Of a stretch of DNA of 64,000 bases, positions 14,283 through 47,328 are shown in pieces. The position numbers were made by a program, and so were the translations under genes. This stretch comes from Oceanidesulfovibrio indonesiensis (GTDB lineage: Bacteria > Desulfobacterota > Desulfovibrionia > Desulfovibrionales > Desulfovibrionaceae). The stretch spans positions 186,001 to 250,000 of the forward strand of contig NZ_QMIE01000004.1 in NCBI RefSeq assembly GCF_007625075.1. The letters are read 5' to 3'. The notes beneath the pieces are model-generated. The model made no database searches and was not told the origin of the DNA. It worked only from the letters and a program-made list of their open reading frames with translations. How positions within the stretch are numbered: the stretch's first letter is position 1; each line of letters opens with the position of its first letter.

Positions 14283-15011
14283 ATGTTTTCGCAGACCACG
14301 GTCATGGAGCGTCTCGTGGAGAAAATCTCCGACCGCGTCGTGGAGAATATCTCCCAGACCATAACCCAAACCGTGGAGAGGGAACTGCAGGAAAGCCTCT
14401 CCAAAGCAATGATCGAAGGCGAGTTCTACCGCGAGATGAACGAAGAAATGCGCGAGGGACTCCAGACCATCTACAGGGAAATCAAGAACGCTTCCCGCAC
14501 TGACGAAGCGAAGGCGAGCGGCCAGACAACGGAACAGCTCTTCACCGAAGCCTCCAAACAGCTCGACGACATCCTCGCCACCACTGAAGAAGCCACCGTC
14601 TCCATTATGGACGTGGTGGAAAAGCATATGGAGCTGCAGAACAAGGCGAACGACCTGCTGGCCGGCCTGCGCAAAACGCGCAAGTCAAACCCCGCCATCC
14701 AGGAACTCATCGACATCAACGACGAGCTCGGCCAGAACCTCGTGCACATCATGACTTCGCTGAGCTTCCAGGACCTCACGGGCCAACGAATCAAGAAGAT
14801 CATCAACGCGCTCAAAACAATCGAATCGACGGTGTTCGAACTGTATCTTTCCACAGGCCTGACCATGAAAGCGCGCGAGGAAGCCCCGGAAAAGGACCTG
14901 GAGTCCATCCGCGAGGAATCCAAGGCCAGGATGTCGCAACTCAAAGGACCACAGCGGGAGTCTTCCCAGGACGACGTGGACGACCTGCTCTCTCAACTGG
15001 GTCTCGAATAA
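14283..15011 (+). CDS. cheZ: Protein phosphatase CheZ
   Basis: Dephosphorylates CheY-P to end the chemotactic signal. The 242-residue protein has long amphipathic helices, the catalytic motif SFQDLTGQ (D164 and Q168, equivalent to E. coli D143 and Q147), and a C-terminal acidic tail ending DDVDDLLSQLGLE, which matches the CheY-tethering helix (DDLLxxLG). AGGAG lies seven bases before ATG 14283. It is cotranscribed with the PilZ-like gene, and the trxB-like gene starts 12 bases after its stop. It is about 24 kb from the che operon at 38.8-47.3 kb, which has its own CheY, so which CheY it acts on is uncertain. Confidence 0.93.
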   Translation: MFSQTTVMERLVEKISDRVVENISQTITQTVERELQESLSKAMIEGEFYREMNEEMREGLQTIYREIKNASRTDEAKASGQTTEQLFTEASKQLDDILATTEEATVSIMDVVEKHMELQNKANDLLAGLRKTRKSNPAIQELIDINDELGQNLVHIMTSLSFQDLTGQRIKKIINALKTIESTVFELYLSTGLTMKAREEAPEKDLESIREESKARMSQLKGPQRESSQDDVDDLLSQLGLE

Positions 15012-38792: not shown

Positions 38793-39869
38793 CTAGCGGC
38801 CGGCCGCACGGCGCACCACTTCCGCGGCAATGGCCCCCAGCGGCATCACCTTGTCCACGCCGCCCTTCTTGATCGCTTCCTGCGGCATGCCGAAAACCAC
38901 GCAGGTAGCTTCGTCCTGGGCGATGGTGAAGGCGCCGGCGTCATGCATCTCCTTCATGCCATGGGCGCCGTCGTCGCCCATGCCGGTCATGATAACGGCC
39001 ACGGCGTTCTTGCCCGCGTACCGCGCGGCGGACCGGAACAGCACATCCACCGAGGGTCGGTGCCGGCTCACCAGCGGACCGTCCTTGACCTCAACATAGT
39101 AGCGGGCGCCGCTGCGCTTGAGCAGCATGTGCCTGTTGCCCGGGGCGATGAGCGCCTGGCCGCGCAGCATGGTGTCCCCGTCCGCTGCTTCCCTCACCGT
39201 GACACGGCAGATGGTGTTCAGCCGGTTGGCGAAGGCGGCCGTGAACTTCTCCGGCATGTGCTGCACGATTGCCACGGCCGGCGCGTCCGAGGGCAATGTC
39301 GCCAGAAAGATGCGCAACGCCTCGGTGCCGCCCGTGGAAGCTCCCACGAGCACGACCTTCTCGGTCGTCTCCACCATGGCTCGTGAGCGGCCTTCCGGGA
39401 TCATGGCGTCCGCCGTGAGCTTGGGCTGCGCCACACGCGGCCGCGCAGATATCTTTTTGACGCTTACCTTGGCTGCGGCCTTCACCGCATCGCAGATGCG
39501 GATGCGCGATTCCTCGATGAACTGCTTCGTGTTCAGCTTCGGCTTCTGGATGATGTCCACGGCCCCGTACTCCAGGGCCCGCAGGGTGGTTTCCGCGCCG
39601 GTCTCCGTGAGCGTGGAGCAGATGACCACCGGGATGGGATGCTGCGACATGATCTTGCGCAGAAAGGTGACCCCGTCCATGCGGGGCATCTCCACGTCCA
39701 GGGTCAGAACGTCCGGTACGACCTCCTCCATCAACTTGGCTGCGGCGAATGGATCGGCAGCTTTGCCGACCACCTCTATGGCCGGATCGGAGTTGAGTAC
39801 ATCTGTGAGAGCCTGGCGCACGAGGGCCGAATCGTCGACCACGAGCACCTTGATTTTTTTGCTGGGCAT
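38793..39869 (-). CDS. cheB: Chemotaxis methylesterase/deamidase CheB
   Basis: Removes methyl groups from receptors (adaptation) and is activated by CheA phosphorylation. The 358-residue protein has an N-terminal receiver ([17 protein letters not shown], phospho-Asp in [15 protein letters not shown], Lys in DIIQKP) and a C-terminal esterase with the catalytic Ser in [11 protein letters not shown], His in IVQHMPEKF and Asp in [14 protein letters not shown]. Start 39869 ([13 protein letters not shown]) is chosen over the ORF start 14 codons upstream, which overlaps the cheR end. It is the last gene of the six-gene chemosensory unit, immediately followed by family 2 repeat copy 3. Confidence 0.96.
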
Positions 39870-39882
39870 ACCCCTTCCCGAG

Positions 39883-40779
39883 TCAGATTCGCTGATAGAT
39901 CGTGGGCGCAACCTGCTTCAGCGGGAGGTCCATGCCGGAGAGGCTTTCGGAGTGCCCGATGAAGAGAAAGCCACCCGGAGCAATGCACCGGCAGAACTTG
40001 TGGAACAGCACTTCCTGCGTGGGCCTGTCAAAGTAGATGATGACGTTGCGGCAGAAGATGATGTCCAACGGATTTCTGAAGGAGAAATCTTCCATGAAGT
40101 TCAGACGCCGGAAACGGACAGCCTTGCGCAGTTCCGGCACGATGCGCACCAGTCGCCTGGAGCGGTCCTTGCTGCGCAGAAGGTACCTGGTTTTGAGCGG
40201 TCCCGGCACCGGCAACACGCGCTCCTCCTCGTACACGGCGTTCACGGCCTTCTCCAGGGCCTGGGTGGAGATGTCCGTGGCCAGGATGGAAAACGAAAAC
40301 CCCGAGTTCTTCGCCGCGTACTCGCTCAGCACCATGGCCAGCGTATAGGGCTCCATGCCGATGGAGCAGCCGGCCGACCACACCGCCAGGGGCCGGCGGC
40401 GATTCAGGCGCGAGTCCAGCAGTGGCAGCACATTGTCCGAAAGGAATTCGAAATGCTTGGGCTCGCGGAAGAAGTCCGTGGTGTTCGTGGTAACTACGTC
40501 TATGAGGTGCGGCAGTTCCCGTTCCATGCCTTCAGAGGAGAACAGATACTCGCAGTACGTGTGGTAATCCTTGAGATTGAGGTAGCGCAGCCGTTTTTGC
40601 AACCGCGCTTCGAGCATTGTCTTCTTGCTGGGCGGCATCTTAATGCCGACCTCGGCGTAGATGAACTGGCTGAACTTCGCGAAGTCCTTGGGAGACATGC
40701 TGGCCGGCCGCGAAGGGCTTTTGCCGGGAGCAGTCTTGCCACGCTCGTCTTTCGAGTTCTGGTTTTTGGTGTCGGCCAT
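39883..40779 (-). CDS. cheR: Chemotaxis protein methyltransferase CheR
   Basis: SAM-dependent enzyme that methylates receptor glutamates. The 298-residue protein has the N-terminal helical domain ([20 protein letters not shown]), the [17 protein letters not shown] motif, the SAM-binding [21 protein letters not shown], and the C-terminal [17 protein letters not shown] and [13 protein letters not shown]. The N-terminal 28 residues are a charged Lys/Ser/Pro-rich extension. It is 37 bases downstream of cheA and 13 bases before cheB. The receptors it serves presumably include the H-NOX MCP encoded upstream, although that protein lacks an obvious CheR-tethering pentapeptide. Confidence 0.95.
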
Positions 40780-40816: not shown

Positions 40817-42985
40817 CTACGGCCTTTCCCTGTTGACGCACTGCACGAGCCTGGGCACGTCGAGTATCAGCGCCATGGTGCCGTCGCCCTTGATGGTTGC
40901 GCCCGAAATGCCCTCAACATTGCGGTAGAGGCGGCCCAGGCTCTTAATGACGGTCTGATGCTCGCCGATGACGGTGTCGACCACGATGCCCACGCGCATA
41001 CCGTCCACTCCTGCCACCACGATCTGTTCGATGGCGGGTCTGTCTCCTGGGGAGTGGAACCACTCGCGCAGGCGAATGTAAGGAACGATCTCCCCGCGCA
41101 GATTCACGATGCGTTGCTCCGCCTTGGGCCGCACGGCCAGTTGCTGGTCCGTCCCCACATCGTCCATTCCGGCCTTCCTGGCGTCTTCGGCGCGATTCAT
41201 CAACTCCACGCATTCCTCCACCATGGTCAGCGGAATGACGAAGTACTCATCCGCCACGCGCACCTGGAGACCGTCGATAATGGCCAGGGTGAGCGGCAGC
41301 TTGACGTTGATGACCGTGCCCTCGCCCACCTTGGAGTCCACGTCCACGCTGCCCCGCAAGGCGTCTATGGATCGTTTGACCACGTCCATGCCCACGCCGC
41401 GACCGGAAACGCTGGTCACCTCACTGGCGGTGGAGAAACCGGGTTGGAAAATGAGTGAAAACGCCTCTTTGTCAGAAATATCCGAATCCGCCGCGATGAT
41501 TCCCCGCTCCACGGCCTTATCGAAGATGACTTTGGGGTCCATGCCTTTGCCGTCGTCCTCGATGCGAATGTGCACCTCGCCGCCGGAATGCTGAGCCGAA
41601 AGCACAATGGTCCCCCACTCAGGCTTTCCCGCGGTCGTGCGCGTCTCGGGACGTTCGATGCCGTGGTCGATGGAATTGCGGAGCAGATGGACCAGCGGAT
41701 CGTTGAGCCGCTCGATGACGGTCTTGTCCAGCTCGGTCTCGGCGCCGTGGGTGACGAGCTCGATCTTCTTGCCCAGCTCGTCGGACAGGTCGCGCACCAG
41801 CCGCCGGAACTTTGAGAACGTAGTGCCGATGGGCAGCATGCGGATGTTGAGGGTAGAATCCCTGAGTTCGTCGGACAGCCTTTCCAACTCTTCGGAGAGG
41901 GTAGTGAGCAGTGGGTCTCGCCGTTCGCTCACCACCTGGCTGATACGCGCCTGGACTATGACGAGCTCGCCCACCAGGTCCACCAGTTCATCCAGTTTGT
42001 CGGCAGCCACGCGGATCGATGTCGCCGGTTCTGCGGCTTCCTGCCGGGTGCGGGTCTTGCGCATCTCCCGGACAGCCTTCTGCTCGGCCAACGCCGAATC
42101 CACCTGCTGCCTGGAGACCATGCCGGCAGAGGAAAGCACCTCGCCGATAGGCGGACGGTTGCGCAACACCTTTTCCAGGTCGTCATGGGAAAGGTCCCCA
42201 CGCTCCACAAGAATTTCCCCGAGCTTCTTGTAGTCTGCGTGTTCGTCGAAATCCCCGCCCTCGTCGATTTTCACGATGCTCAGTTCGCAGTCGTCCTCCA
42301 CGAAAATGAAGACGTCGCGGATGGCGTCCTCTCCGCGCGAGGTCGTCAGTATGATGTCCCACCACGTATAGCAGTGCTCGGGGTTGAGCTCTTCGAGCGC
42401 CGGCACGCTCTCCAAATGCGCGAAGGTGCGGCACGCGCCAAGCTCCGCCAGTTCGTCGATGAGGGCCAGCGGATTGGACCCGCTGAAAAAGATGGTCTCC
42501 TCCGGCCGGAAGCGGATGCGATACGTTACTGACGACGAACCCGGCTCGTCTTCGGTTGCTGCCGTTTCCGGCTCAATCTCACGGCCGCCCTCCGCCAGGG
42601 AGGACGGGACAAGTTTCCGTAGCCCGCTGGTCACGCCGCGTGTCCGCTCCAGGTCCACCGCTTCGCCGGTGTCTGCGCAGTCCAGCAGATAGGATATGGT
42701 GTCCCGCGCGGCGAGGGTGAGGTCCAGAAGATCTTTGGTCACGGCCATCTGGCCGTTGCGCACATGGTCGAAGACCGTCTCCACGTCGTGCGTGAAAGCG
42801 GCGATGTCGTCGAAGCCGAACATCGCGCCGGACCCCTTGATGGTGTGCATGGCGCGAAACACCCGGTCCACGAGGTCATGGTCGTCGGGGTTCTCCTCAA
42901 GCTCCAGGAGGGCCGACTCAAGCTCGGTGAGCAGCTCGGTGGCTTCTTCGCGAAACGCTTGTCTGTTGATGTCGTCCTGCGTCAT
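40817..42985 (-). CDS. cheA: Chemotaxis histidine kinase CheA
   Basis: A 722-residue soluble kinase. The N-terminal HPt domain has the phospho-acceptor His47 in FRAMHTIKGSGAMFGF. Around 150-250 is a domain with TYRIRFRPEETIFFSG typical of delta-proteobacterial CheA. Residues about 255-305 carry two GEIL-type repeats (LGEILVERGDLS and IGEVLSSAGMVS), like those in GspE-N/MshEN. Then come the dimerisation region, HATPase with N-box HLLRNSIDHGIER, G1 EDDGKGMD and G2 GRGVGMDVVK, and a C-terminal CheW-like domain. No separate cheW gene is in the cluster. Start 42985 (MTQDDINRQAF) is preferred to the ORF start 11 codons upstream. Confidence 0.95.
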   Translation of the reverse strand: MTQDDINRQAFREEATELLTELESALLELEENPDDHDLVDRVFRAMHTIKGSGAMFGFDDIAAFTHDVETVFDHVRNGQMAVTKDLLDLTLAARDTISYLLDCADTGEAVDLERTRGVTSGLRKLVPSSLAEGGREIEPETAATEDEPGSSSVTYRIRFRPEETIFFSGSNPLALIDELAELGACRTFAHLESVPALEELNPEHCYTWWDIILTTSRGEDAIRDVFIFVEDDCELSIVKIDEGGDFDEHADYKKLGEILVERGDLSHDDLEKVLRNRPPIGEVLSSAGMVSRQQVDSALAEQKAVREMRKTRTRQEAAEPATSIRVAADKLDELVDLVGELVIVQARISQVVSERRDPLLTTLSEELERLSDELRDSTLNIRMLPIGTTFSKFRRLVRDLSDELGKKIELVTHGAETELDKTVIERLNDPLVHLLRNSIDHGIERPETRTTAGKPEWGTIVLSAQHSGGEVHIRIEDDGKGMDPKVIFDKAVERGIIAADSDISDKEAFSLIFQPGFSTASEVTSVSGRGVGMDVVKRSIDALRGSVDVDSKVGEGTVINVKLPLTLAIIDGLQVRVADEYFVIPLTMVEECVELMNRAEDARKAGMDDVGTDQQLAVRPKAEQRIVNLRGEIVPYIRLREWFHSPGDRPAIEQIVVAGVDGMRVGIVVDTVIGEHQTVIKSLGRLYRNVEGISGATIKGDGTMALILDVPRLVQCVNRERP

Positions 42986-43040: not shown

Positions 43041-43403
43041 CTATCGCAGCACCTTGTTCACCACGGCAAGCAGTTGATCCGGCTTGAACGGCTTGACGAT
43101 CCATCCCGTTGCGCCGGCGCTCTTGCCTTCCTGCTTCTTGCCGGCCTGGGATTCCGTGGTCAGCATGATGACCGGGATGAACTTGTATTGCGCCTGGGCC
43201 CGCACGTTCTTGATGAGCGTGATGCCGTCCATGTTGGGCATGTTGAGGTCGGTAATGATCATGTCTACCGGCCCCTTGAGCTTGTTGAGCGCATCCTTGC
43301 CGTCCTGCGCTTCGATGACGTTGAAGCCGGCGTTCTTCAGTGTGAACGACACCATCTGGCGCACGCTGGCCGAGTCATCGACCGTCATTATGGTCTTTCC
43401 CAC
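43041..43403 (-). CDS. cheY: Response regulator CheY (single receiver domain)
   Basis: A 120-residue stand-alone receiver. Acidic pocket and start TIMTVDDSASVRQM, phospho-Asp in MIITDLNMPNMDG, Thr/Ser in VIMLTTESQ and Lys in GWIVKPFKPDQL give the complete CheY set. Translation begins at GTG 43403, with AAGGAG six bases upstream, giving VGKTIMTVDD (read as Met). The longer ORF upstream overlaps the previous gene and is not protein-like. It lies 10 bases after the soluble MCP-like gene and 55 before cheA in the transcription direction. Whether its target is the flagellar motor or another output is unknown; cheZ in this window lies far away. Confidence 0.95.
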   Translation of the reverse strand: MGKTIMTVDDSASVRQMVSFTLKNAGFNVIEAQDGKDALNKLKGPVDMIITDLNMPNMDGITLIKNVRAQAQYKFIPVIMLTTESQAGKKQEGKSAGATGWIVKPFKPDQLLAVVNKVLR

Positions 43404-43413
43404 ATTTGGCTCC

Positions 43414-45225
43414 TTAGAAAAGTTCGACGTCGCCCCAGTCGTCGACGTCTTCCGAACATTCACTTTCGCCGCCGCCCTCAGGGCCGCAGCTTTCCTTTTT
43501 CAATGCCTGTTGATGTATGAGCCGCTCCGCCTCCATGGTGTAGCGGGCGAGCATCTTGTCCAGCCGTTCTGGCCGGCTTTCGTCCTCATCGTGCGGCACA
43601 ATGGTTGTCGCCTCGTCTCGCAGCTCGGCGAGCACATCCGCACCCTTGCTCAACTCGGCGCAGACATCCTCGTGGAAAGTCATCGAGTTGTTGAGCGATT
43701 CGATGGACGCTCCCAGGTCGGCGCCCTGCCTGCGTATGGTTTCGAAGAGCGAATCCACTTCCTCGTCGATACGCCTGAGCCCGGCGAGAATCTGCTCGAT
43801 CCTGGTGATCATCTCCGAGACCTGGCTTGTATCCATGAACGCTTCCGCGTTGGATTTCAAGTTCGTCGATGCTTCGCCGATGCGGCCGAGGATATCCGTG
43901 ACGGACTCGGTCAGCGAGCCGGCCTCCTGGGAAAGCTGCTGGATGGAGGATGCAAGCACGCCCAGGGCCTTGCCTTTGTCGCCGGTATGGGCAGCCTTCA
44001 CACTGGCGTTCAGGGAGATGAGCTCGATTTCCGAGCCGACCTCCTCGATGTCCTCCAGAAAATGCGTCATTTCGGTAACAGTGTCCGCCACCTGCACCAT
44101 GATGGCGCCTATGGCTTCGCCCTGGTCGGCGAACTCCTTCATGGCGTCCATTACGTCGCCCAGGCCGGCCTCGATGGCGTCCAGCGTTGTGCCGCCGGTT
44201 TCCGAGGCCGTAATGCCCGAGGCGTTGCTCTCCAGTTGAAACACGTTCCCGGCAATGGAGCCGAGATGGCTCTTGAGCGACTCCACGGCTTTATAAAAGC
44301 TGTCCGATGCGTTGACGAGCTGCGAGTGCTGAAGGCCGCAGACATCCCCGATGAATCCCACAAGGTCGCGCAACGCATCCGGATCGTCCCTGCGGCCATG
44401 CTCGTTCTCGTGCAGCAGGTCGCGTATTTCCTGCAACGATTCCTCCACATGCTCCACCTGCTGGCGGGTGATGTCGTGGAACTGCACGGAGGCCACGGCC
44501 TCGCCGATGGAGGATGCGATCTGGCGCGAGAGAGGCTCCAGATTTCTGGACACCTCGCCTGACTTGTCCGCCATCTTCACGAGGGCGTCCAGATTGGTGC
44601 GGATGTTGTTTTCGATGGTCCGGCTGGACGCGGCCTGGCGAGCGCGCATTTCACCAGTCTGCTCCAGCGCCGTGGTGACCATGGACGAAAGGTCGTCCAC
44701 CTTCTCCATGATCTGCCCGGAGTATTCCACGATGCGTTTGGCCAGCTTCTCCACGTCGTCGGCCAGCGTGGTGAACCCACGGCCTTCCGCACCCAGTCGG
44801 GCGGATTCGATGCGCGTGGATATGCCCAGCATGGACAGCGCCCGGACCACCCTGCGGTACTCGTCGATAGTCTTTGTCAGGGTTTCCACCGTATTATGGA
44901 TGGTGGTAAGCTCCTGGACATTCTGGTCGCTTGCCGCCTTGGACCAGAGCTCGGTCATCTTGTCGAGCTCCTGGTGCAACTCGGTGCGGAAGGACTCCAT
45001 GGCCTCTGCCGAGGTGAGCCCTGCGAGCGACTCCGTCTCCTCCGCAAGATGCGAGGCTTGCATGGAATATTCCTGCAACGAATTGCCGAGCTCCAGGAAT
45101 TCCGGCTCACGCTCCTGGATTGTTCGCGCGAGACGCGCATCGAGCTGGGGCAACTCGCGCTCGCAACGCTCCTCGAACTTCAGCGCCCGCTCGATGTCGA
45201 TCGTAAATGTATCGCTTTCGCTCAT
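43414..45225 (-). CDS. Soluble MCP-like helical protein with internal duplication
   Basis: A 603-residue, almost entirely alpha-helical cytosolic protein without membrane helices. Two segments resemble the MCP hairpin tip: residues 132-163 (LGISTRIESARLGAEGRG, then FTTLADDVEKLAKRI) and 402-433 (LISLNASVKAAHTGDKGKA, then LGVLASSIQQLSQEA). After the first is VQFHDITRQQVEHV (residues 247-260), which resembles the CheZ active-site helix SFQDLTGQ; the second half has a weaker equivalent at 515-521 (MTFHEDV). The C-terminus is acidic and ends DDWGDVELF. It probably couples receptor signals to CheA or influences CheY-P, but this is inference. It lies 15 bases after the H-NOX MCP gene and 10 before cheY, so it belongs to the operon. 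Confidence 0.78.
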   Translation of the reverse strand: MSESDTFTIDIERALKFEERCERELPQLDARLARTIQEREPEFLELGNSLQEYSMQASHLAEETESLAGLTSAEAMESFRTELHQELDKMTELWSKAASDQNVQELTTIHNTVETLTKTIDEYRRVVRALSMLGISTRIESARLGAEGRGFTTLADDVEKLAKRIVEYSGQIMEKVDDLSSMVTTALEQTGEMRARQAASSRTIENNIRTNLDALVKMADKSGEVSRNLEPLSRQIASSIGEAVASVQFHDITRQQVEHVEESLQEIRDLLHENEHGRRDDPDALRDLVGFIGDVCGLQHSQLVNASDSFYKAVESLKSHLGSIAGNVFQLESNASGITASETGGTTLDAIEAGLGDVMDAMKEFADQGEAIGAIMVQVADTVTEMTHFLEDIEEVGSEIELISLNASVKAAHTGDKGKALGVLASSIQQLSQEAGSLTESVTDILGRIGEASTNLKSNAEAFMDTSQVSEMITRIEQILAGLRRIDEEVDSLFETIRRQGADLGASIESLNNSMTFHEDVCAELSKGADVLAELRDEATTIVPHDEDESRPERLDKMLARYTMEAERLIHQQALKKESCGPEGGGESECSEDVDDWGDVELF

Positions 45226-45240
45226 GCATGCTCCGTCCGG

Positions 45241-47328
45241 CTAGAGAAACGTAATCTCGGCGCGGGCCCTGGCCGAATCGAGAGGCGTCACCTTCACCGA
45301 TACGGGTTTGTCGAAAAAAGCCGCCGCGCCTTTGATGATGCCTTCGAAATACTCGAACAGACCGCGGCCGGACTTGTACTCCATTATCAGTTTGTTCCCT
45401 TTGTCGTCGTAGGTGAAACGCGGCGGCTGGATTCCGGGGTAGTCCTTGGTCAGCTGGGCGTGGATGCGGTCCATGTCCAGATAGAGTTCTTTCAGATTGT
45501 CGTGCTTGAAGTACCGGCTGTACAGCTTTTTGAACTGAGGCACGGTGTAGCGGCCGAAGCCGGTGAACACGTCCCTGGTGGACGCGCCGACCGCCTGAGC
45601 CGTCTCGTGGGCCATCTGCTTGAGGACCTGGTCCGGGTACGTCACCGCAGGCAGGAAAATGGGGTCGCCCATGGCCTGCTGCACCTGGCGAAAGACCTTG
45701 CTGCCGTATTCCGCCCGGATGAAATCCTGCATCATCTTGGGCAGCACGCCGCGCATCTTGCCCTTGGACTTCCAGAAGTTTCCAGCCGCTTCGGACTTGC
45801 CGGCCAGCGCGAGGGAGAGGTCCAGAAGCTCCTGGGCCAGCTCGGCCAGCCCCCGTGTGGCCCGGGCCGTCTGCTCGGCGCCTTCCTCGGACTCTCCGGC
45901 GATGACCGCGATGCCCTCGATGGACTGGTTGATCTCCTCGGCGGCTGCGGACTGCTCCTCGGCAGCGGTGGCTATCTGAGTCACCCGCTGCACCATGTCC
46001 TCAATAGTTTCAAGTATCTTATGCAGGGCTTCGCCGGCCTGGTTGGACAACTCTGTGGACGTCTCCACCTGTTCTTCGGTGGCGCGCATGGAGACGGTCG
46101 CCTCCTTGGACCGCGACTGAATGGTGGAGATGGACTTCTCCACTTCCTTGGTGGCCGTCATGGTCTTTTCCGCCAGTTTGCGCACCTCGTCCGCCACTAC
46201 GGCGAAGCCCCGTCCGGCGTCGCCAGCCCGCGCCGCCTCGATGGCCGCGTTCAGGGCAAGAAGATTTGTCTGGTCCGCAATGTCGTTGATCACTCCGATG
46301 ATGGTTCCGATCTGGGTGGACTGATCCCCGAGTTGGTCGAGAACGGCCGAGAGCTCCGCAGTCTGGGTGGATACGCGATGGATGCCGTCCACGGCCTGGC
46401 CCACGAGCCTCGCGCCTTCGCTGGCCGAATCGCGCGCGCCGTTGGCCGCCTCGGACGTGGCCGAGGCGTTCTGCGCCACCTCCAGAACCGTGGCGGTCAT
46501 CTGCTCCATGGCCGTGGCCACGGCCTCGGACTGATCCTTTTGCTGGCGCGCTCCGCGGGATTGCTCGCTGGCGGATGCGGAAAGCTCCTCGCTGGCGGCG
46601 GCCACACGCTGGGCAAGATCCCTGACCTGTCCGCCACTGGCCATGAGTTCTTCCTGCTGCTCCTTCATGGCGAAGCATTCGCGGGAAACTATCTCGGCAT
46701 CGGCAAGCACGAGCAGAAGCGCGGGTTCCCGCCCCTCGTCCATGATCCAGTTGGAATGCACGATGACGTGCCGCTCGCCCGAGGATGCCTGAAATTTGAA
46801 ATGCAGGCCGTGCTGCTCCTCGCGGAGAATGTCGCCGGCCTGGGGGCCGAGCACATCGGTGATGAGTCGGCCTTCAACCGAGGAGCTCTCCCTGCCGATC
46901 AGGGATGCGAAGCCGCTGGTGGCGAAAAGGATGCCGCCGTCCTGGTTGACGATGGCGAGAGGGGTTTCGGCATGCGCCAGGGATTGCGTGCGTAAAGCAA
47001 CCCCTTCCGCTCTGGAGGAGGTGGACGACGCCTCACGCATTACGGTCAACACGCCGTCGAAGGTCTTTTCCTGAATCGCAGCAGCGGCAGGGCCGAGGAT
47101 GGCTACCGCATCCTCCACAAATTGCCCCATCATTCTGCGGATATAGATGTAGACACTGAGAGTTGCGGCAACGCCGACGAATGCAATCAGGGCGGCAATC
47201 AGCAGACCGGTCGAAGAATCGGATTGGTGGGCGGCGACAGCTCCTGCGAATACGAGAGCACTGAGCGCGAGGCCCAATCCCACAACCATGGTGCCTATAT
47301 TGATATATCCGATCCTGCGATGGTTCAT
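45241..47328 (-). CDS. Methyl-accepting chemotaxis protein with PAS and C-terminal H-NOX (heme NO/O2-binding) domain
   Basis: A 695-residue receptor. Two membrane helices (about 10-32 and 41-63) enclose a very short periplasmic loop, so sensing is cytoplasmic. A PAS-like domain (about 111-215, [19 protein letters not shown]) follows, then the MCP signalling domain (about 235-510) with hairpin tip [20 protein letters not shown]. Residues 524-695 form an H-NOX domain: [16 protein letters not shown] at the start, proximal heme ligand His623 in DRIHAQLTK, Pro636 in QPPRF, and the heme-propionate motif YKSGR (651-655). Tyr660 aligns with the distal Tyr of Thermoanaerobacter H-NOX that stabilises bound O2. 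In clostridial receptors the H-NOX is N-terminal; here it is at the C-terminus. Start 47328 is chosen as [10 protein letters not shown]; the ORF extends 28 codons upstream. First gene of the che operon. Confidence 0.93.

Follow-up and report, generated by a model that had tools for sequence, protein, structure and literature searches.

Can a gas-sensing domain drive the signalling hairpin of a chemoreceptor from its C-terminal end? The question is raised by a gene, here called mcp-hnox, in a 64,000-nt stretch of contig NZ_QMIE01000004.1 of Oceanidesulfovibrio indonesiensis (Desulfovibrionaceae), referred to below as the window. It encodes a methyl-accepting chemotaxis protein (MCP) that ends in an H-NOX domain, and it heads an operon of chemotaxis genes. 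The C-terminal placement of H-NOX is the rule in this family and not a peculiarity of one protein. We regard it as probable, if only just, that the product is an inner-membrane receptor in which a heme O2 sensor, perhaps also one for NO, drives the CheA of the same operon.

The gene lies on the minus strand; the plus-strand translation of 45241–47328 is unrelated and contains a stop. Pfam places MCPsignal at residues 292–474 (E 6.7e-48) and HNOB at residues 527–680 (E 2.3e-37, 128.9 bits against a curated cut-off of 25.5), and the tip residues typical of MCP chemoreceptors (358–369) are invariant in all 42 aligned proteins. An AlphaFold2 model of the receptor, built on the 42-row alignment (mean pLDDT 80.9, pTM 0.47), has helices at 11–35 and 40–84, a PAS-like fold at 124–210, the two arms of the hairpin at 212–367 and 369–508, and H-NOX at 524–694, where the pLDDT is 86–96 in 10-residue blocks. 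Both the Pfam domain order and the model thus bear out an earlier note on this DNA, which had placed H-NOX behind the MCP signalling domain. The note had also seen almost no periplasmic loop, and hydropathy agrees: two hydrophobic stretches lie close together, with windows starting at 6–16 and 36–46. Its PAS domain falls under the Pfam cut-off in the receptor itself (E 0.13–0.17), but the best PAS model matches 35 of the 42 aligned proteins at E ≤ 1, and residues 121–224 of the receptor model align with a PAS domain of known structure (Z 13.1, root mean square deviation (rmsd) 4.2). The order of two transmembrane (TM) helices, PAS, MCP and H-NOX is therefore confirmed.

Within the family, HNOB gave 98 matches in 97 of 247 genomes. 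H-NOX lies behind the hairpin tip in all 93 rows that have the tip in frame, and the distance from the tip Glu to the Tyr17 column is 175–178 residues in 91 of them (positions 9, 17, 74, 102, 115, 131–135 and 140 are given in the numbering of H-NOX from Thermoanaerobacter tengcongensis, Tt). The other five rows are one standalone H-NOX and four tip-less short frames (306–336 amino acids (aa)), which are found at contig ends or past a possible frame break. Since the 93 tip-bearing rows agree, neither an assembly artefact nor an isolated case can explain the C-terminal placement, and within Desulfovibrionaceae the receptor is an ordinary one. According to a 2021 review H-NOX precedes its effector (PMC8196705), so the family has the reverse of the published order, and the protein differs from the published H-NOX-MCP type, in which H-NOX is N-terminal. 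We recognised no description of a C-terminal H-NOX on an MCP among the open-licence papers listed, although the founding HNOB paper (Iyer 2003) may hold one. The family-wide reversed order is new to us, and so are two features described below, the changed partners of the distal Tyr and the operon that includes the MCP-like protein X.

Outside the family the picture is different. Ten of 297 genomes sampled from the phylum have HNOB, four from the family and six from outside it, and the six outside frames are only 186–246 aa long, i.e. standalone. The H-NOX domain starts with M-R/K-G in many relatives of the receptor, likewise in several standalone H-NOX proteins, which suggests that the receptor acquired a complete domain at its C-terminal end. 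Scanning named genomes with HNOB gave 23 loci, with titles from Desulfovibrio, Nitratidesulfovibrio, Solidesulfovibrio, Humidesulfovibrio, Pseudodesulfovibrio, Desulfocurvus, Desulfovibrionaceae bacterium, Proteobacteria bacterium and one Planctomycetaceae. The last (Planctomycetaceae bacterium UBA12365, a 4.7-kb contig) has an H-NOX that is 51% identical and is probably mis-binned Desulfovibrionaceae DNA.

The predicted heme pocket

The structure prediction and alignment that the earlier note had proposed as a check returned an H-NOX fold (Z 19.7–23.3). Residues 525–695 of the model, a predicted and not a solved structure, align end-to-end with residues 1..179 of Tt H-NOX chains (Z 19.7–22.0) and with residues 1..182 of Nostoc H-NOX chains (Z 22.0–23.3), with 170–171 residues aligned at an rmsd of 1.6–2.6. 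Other H-NOX and soluble guanylate cyclase structures gave Z 13.9–22.0. A chance or degraded H-NOX match is ruled out by the alignment, the HNOB score and this fold match.

The heme-site residues were found where the note had put them, both by script and by alignment to the Tt residues: His623 stands at the proximal position, Pro636 corresponds to Pro115, and Tyr651-Ser653-Arg655 of the YxSxR motif (651–655) to residues 131–135. Tyr660, which falls at the same place as Tyr140 in the sequence alignments, appears to be its equivalent. Tyr140 is given as the O2-stabilising residue (PMC8738867; PMC12329717), and Trp9 and Asn74 form hydrogen bonds with it in the Tt/Cs protein (PMC7356049). The receptor has Met533 at position 9 and Thr595 at position 74, so that only Tyr660 is left of the Trp9-Asn74-Tyr140 triad. 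This triad is a feature of the Tt protein and does not define the O2-type class. Of the O2-type distal pocket claimed by the note, the distal Tyr thus stands and the Tt partners do not; the pocket is better called a variant O2-type pocket, to which a Tt-like affinity cannot be carried over. By analogy with Tyr70/Thr95 in the aerotaxis receptor HemAT, Tyr paired with Thr or Ser could stabilise O2.

The same residues recur in an alignment of 98 Desulfovibrionaceae H-NOX domains (97 fetched loci and the window). His is found at position 102 in 97 rows, and Pro115 and YxSxR are present in all 97 readable rows. Position 74 is Thr in 83 rows and Ser in 13 (Thr or Ser in 96/98), while position 9 is more often Met (57/98) than Ala (17/98) or Thr (16/98). 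At position 140 the rows with the hairpin tip in frame (93, of which 92 are readable) have Tyr in 90 cases and Phe in two; all four short tip-less frames have Tyr, and the one standalone row of the family has Met. Together with the six outside-family proteins from the phylum sample, all seven standalone H-NOX have L, M or V here, in line with the note's statement that NO-type H-NOX proteins lack the distal Tyr. The distal Tyr therefore goes with MCP fusion (94:2 versus 0:7; Fisher p 1.8e-9, uncorrected for shared ancestry and overstating the independence of related sequences). This split is what published statements on O2-type and NO-type proteins predict, according to which the distal-Tyr H-NOX domains found in strict anaerobes are fused to MCPs and probably sense O2 for chemotaxis (PMC8738867; PMC12329717). 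The two rows with Phe are unusual elsewhere in the pocket as well: L124 (genome G115) has Tyr replacing the proximal His, and L126 (genome G163) has Ala replacing Thr74. They are natural variants or cases of decay.

The natural ligand might instead be NO, or NO and O2, with the Tyr only setting kinetics and the cells being steered from nitrosative zones. The H-NOX of Tt/Ct binds O2, NO and CO (PMC9814294). Among the titles that this paper cites is one on the femtomolar NO sensitivity of a Clostridium botulinum protein, and a title in the reference list of PMC8738867 describes the same protein as binding O2, in an oxy form less stable than that of Tt H-NOX. The loss of Trp9 and Asn74 from the receptor's pocket points the same way. 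Yet the Tyr that is lacking in NO-type proteins is kept in 90/92 fused domains and 4/4 short frames and occurs in 0/7 standalone ones, and we consider NO as the natural ligand unlikely, though worth keeping in mind.

A possible route from the sensor to CheA

How the sensor might reach the hairpin can be approached from the spacings in the 42 aligned proteins. The tip and L502, a residue close to where the C helix ends, are 138 residues apart in 42/42, and G527 to Y660 spans 133 residues in 40/42 (132 and 134 in one each). The stretch between them, L502 to G527, varies from 23 to 29 residues (25 in 19 proteins, 24 in 12, 26 in five, 23 in four, 28 and 29 once each). The narrow tip-to-H-NOX spacing had suggested rigid helical coupling, but this linker weakens the idea and makes coupling via helix register unlikely. 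Its position after the C helix should place H-NOX at the hairpin base, near both the membrane and the PAS domain, and our preferred reading is that it docks on the base or on that domain.

The most variable part of the protein is the N-terminal one, where the stretch ahead of the PAS column has 87 to 179 residues and that from PAS to the hairpin 67 to 129. These lengths bear on a further alternative, in which sensing falls mainly to the PAS domain or the membrane part, H-NOX only setting the gain or reporting the heme or redox state. The predicted PAS fold of the receptor model is compatible with it, and so is the heme-independent response to oxidation described for a Vibrio cholerae H-NOX (PMC7108781). 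The constancy of H-NOX (132–134 residues) beside such a variable N-terminal part argues against it, and we find it improbable.

In the mechanism that we favour, with H-NOX as the O2 sensor, the receptor would face the cytoplasm and its H-NOX domain would bind heme via His623, while Tyr660 would hold O2, Thr595 probably helping. When a ligand binds, the heme would move, and so would the N-terminal helix of H-NOX, through which the domain is attached to the receptor. The domain would then alter how the hairpin base packs and thereby how active the operon's CheA is, with output via CheY and adaptation via CheR and CheB. The expected behaviour of an anaerobe would be leaving O2 or settling at low O2.

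Downstream of mcp-hnox, on the same strand, follow the genes for protein X, cheY, cheA, cheR and cheB (Table 1). A cheA that starts on the same strand no more than 6.5 kb from the receptor start was found in 49/98 rows, in two layouts: 12 rows have X and cheA, and 37 have cheA without X. No such cheA was found in 44 rows, four are cut short, and one is the standalone H-NOX. These layouts are strongly clustered on the tree. In the draft genome to which the window belongs (330 contigs) there are one HNOB, two CheA and, X aside, 21 MCP frames; genes for CheB, CheR and CheW cluster with the second CheA (1015 aa).

With a second CheA cluster in the genome, the operon of the receptor might take no part in flagellar steering and serve some other CheY-dependent output, e.g. 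attachment to surfaces, for which H-NOX would supply the gas signal. In Desulfovibrio vulgaris Hildenborough only cheA3, of three cheA mutants, lost its motility halo (PMC3944678); cheA3 (3270 bp) is similar in size to the second CheA and may correspond to it. The operon, however, encodes stand-alone CheY, CheR and CheB, and among its six proteins Pfam showed no further output domain, which makes this role quite unlikely.

Several observations weigh against an O2 receptor working through the operon's CheA. The O2-sensing role of the Tt/Ct protein is itself described as presumed and not yet demonstrated (PMC9814294). Without the Tt/Cs partners of Tyr140 a stable oxy complex is not guaranteed, and two fused rows have Phe at 140, one of them with Tyr at 102 as well. 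The variable stretch between C helix and H-NOX disfavours a rigid helix, and of the 44/98 rows with no cheA start within 6.5 kb, 41 have enough DNA to reveal one, so that the CheA partnership is not general. The earlier note's reading of a cytoplasmic O2 (possibly NO) sensor is thus partly supported: the placement of Tyr660, the link between Tyr and fusion and the C-terminal position speak for it, but the pocket is not that of Tt, and a rigid link is not favoured.

The CheA of the operon (40817–42985, minus strand) has at residues ~250–306 an LGEIL-type repeat that resembles a c-di-GMP-binding motif. It scores 36.5 bits against an NCBIfam cut-off of 38 and can be seen by eye in 17/19 aligned CheA. 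No c-di-GMP- or MshE-named model is among the 22 Pfam families listed for these 19 proteins at E ≤ 1, and DUF4388 matches nine of them.

Table 1. Features of the mcp-hnox receptor, its operon and the CheZ gene in the window.
Feature	Position	Strand	Basis or remark
mcp-hnox receptor gene	45241..47328	-	695 aa + stop; ATG at 47328, stop ends at 45241
Residues 1-84, two TM helices and very short loop	47077..47328	-	hydropathy; model helices 11-35, 40-84
PAS-fold domain, residues ~121-210	46699..46968	-	AlphaFold2 model, Pfam, structure alignment
MCP signalling hairpin, residues 212-508, tip Glu364	45805..46695	-	Pfam MCPsignal, model helices, constant spacing
Variable linker, residues 509-524	45757..45804	-	model and spacing in 42 proteins
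H-NOX domain, residues 525-695	45244..45756	-	starts MRG at the column of H-NOX residue 1
His623, proximal heme ligand position (Tt His102)	45460..45462	-	alignment and script
Tyr660, distal Tyr position (Tt Tyr140)	45349..45351	-	sequence alignments and script
X, 603 aa, MCP-like, two tips, SxQFHDIxRQ motif at 246-255, VELF C-terminus	43414..45225	-	
cheY, single receiver domain	43041..43403	-	start codon uncertain; open reading frame reaches 43463
cheA (Hpt, dimerisation, ATPase, CheW domains)	40817..42985	-	one of two CheA found in genome
cheR	39883..40779	-	
cheB (receiver and methylesterase domains)	38793..39911	-	start codon uncertain; overlaps cheR
True CheZ	14283-15011	+	Pfam E 2.5e-17; apart from operon; only one found in genome

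Protein X

The 17 rows of X include four repeats and represent 13 distinct genes. X has two conserved but diverged MCP tips (7/7 rows), and receptors with a double hairpin are known, such as DosM in Vibrio (PMC7534058). All 13 genes share an invariant SxQFHDIxRQQxEHV stretch and a C-terminus of the form [VI][ED]LF, in a tail that the model predicts with low confidence; CheZ likewise ends in a short conserved peptide. In the CheZ signature AxxFQ is directly followed by DxxxQ (PMC7750401), and the window's true CheZ has SLSFQDLTGQ. X carries a putative catalytic-type motif, [AS]xxF[QH]DxxxQ, in 13/13 distinct genes. As a control, the same pattern was found in 15 of 7478 frames: 12 copies of X, the true CheZ and two unrelated frames.

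Is X then simply a CheZ? CheZ is absent from the 25 Pfam families that rank best for X (E up to 0.36) and likewise from those listed for residues 1–340 (E up to 2.3), any unlisted match being weaker, and we therefore rejected X as a plain CheZ. What remains is the motif and an hhalign match to the family's CheZ that is in register but weak (P 0.0088, probability 4.6%). In VIA-align the top matches of the X model were unrelated proteins with long helices (TTYH2, Z 16.9), and Thermotoga receptors came at Z 9.1–10.7; no CheZ is among the best 50 matches listed, which excludes nothing. The PADLOC matches of X (LmuB, DruC) look like coiled-coil matches.

X is found in 52/247 family genomes, 11 of them without HNOB, so the che operon of X seems to be shared with the H-NOX receptor only in some lineages. 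Two drafts, G014 (430 contigs) and G016 (40 contigs), have X, and the family search found no CheZ match in either, a pattern compatible with X standing in for CheZ. No receptor with a CheZ-like site was recognised among the papers listed. Going by its motif, we hypothesise that X acts as a phosphatase.

Put together, a larger picture can be drawn, which we offer tentatively and think rather unlikely to hold as a whole. Desulfovibrionaceae would have a reversed H-NOX receptor with a HemAT-like Tyr-Thr/Ser O2 pocket, and in some lineages this receptor would belong to a self-contained gas-taxis operon in which X ends the signal. X would then be a phosphatase that uses the frame of a chemoreceptor. 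Of its two diverged hairpins the first would carry at its base a DxxxQ site resembling that of CheZ, and a flexible tail, with a near-constant VELF peptide at its end, would bind CheY in the manner of the CheZ tail.

Comparison with known systems

If the receptor works as proposed, H-NOX chemoreceptors exist in two opposite domain orders, and the same gas-sensor fold drives the hairpin from either end, which would make a clean comparison for sensor-receptor communication. The operon, with one gas receptor, one CheA and one CheY, would be a compact system for reconstituting heme-based taxis in an anaerobe, and the natural variants of the family (Phe for the distal Tyr, Tyr for the proximal His) would be material to probe the Tyr rule. 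A Desulfovibrio desulfuricans H-NOX construct (728–899) is reportedly found in patent sequence lists and would, if so, have the same C-terminal architecture; no paper on it was found in the literature searched.

A C-terminal gas sensor on an MCP is not new in principle, as DcrH of Desulfovibrio vulgaris, a sulfate reducer, has an O2-binding domain at this end, a hemerythrin hypothesised to serve O2 avoidance (PMC13401364). Unlike the receptor described here, DcrH has a diiron hemerythrin instead of H-NOX, plus a periplasmic domain and HAMP. HemAT, the globin-coupled aerotaxis receptor, is a heme O2 sensor on an MCP, as proposed here, but has a globin fold and an N-terminal sensor. Its pocket uses Tyr70 and Thr95 (PMC13401364), to which the possible Tyr660/Thr595 pair might be analogous. 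The standalone H-NOX proteins belong to the same fold family and share the heme-site residues, but the seven examined lack both the distal Tyr and an MCP in frame. A further comparison is the Tt/Cs H-NOX-MCP (Thermoanaerobacter tengcongensis/Caldanaerobacter; PDB 1u4h, 1u55 and 3m0b), which shares with the receptor the fold, the proximal His, Pro115, YxSxR and Tyr140 and is likewise fused to an MCP in an anaerobe. It differs at 23–26% identity, with Trp9 and Asn74 where the receptor has Met and Thr, and here H-NOX follows TM-TM-PAS-MCP.
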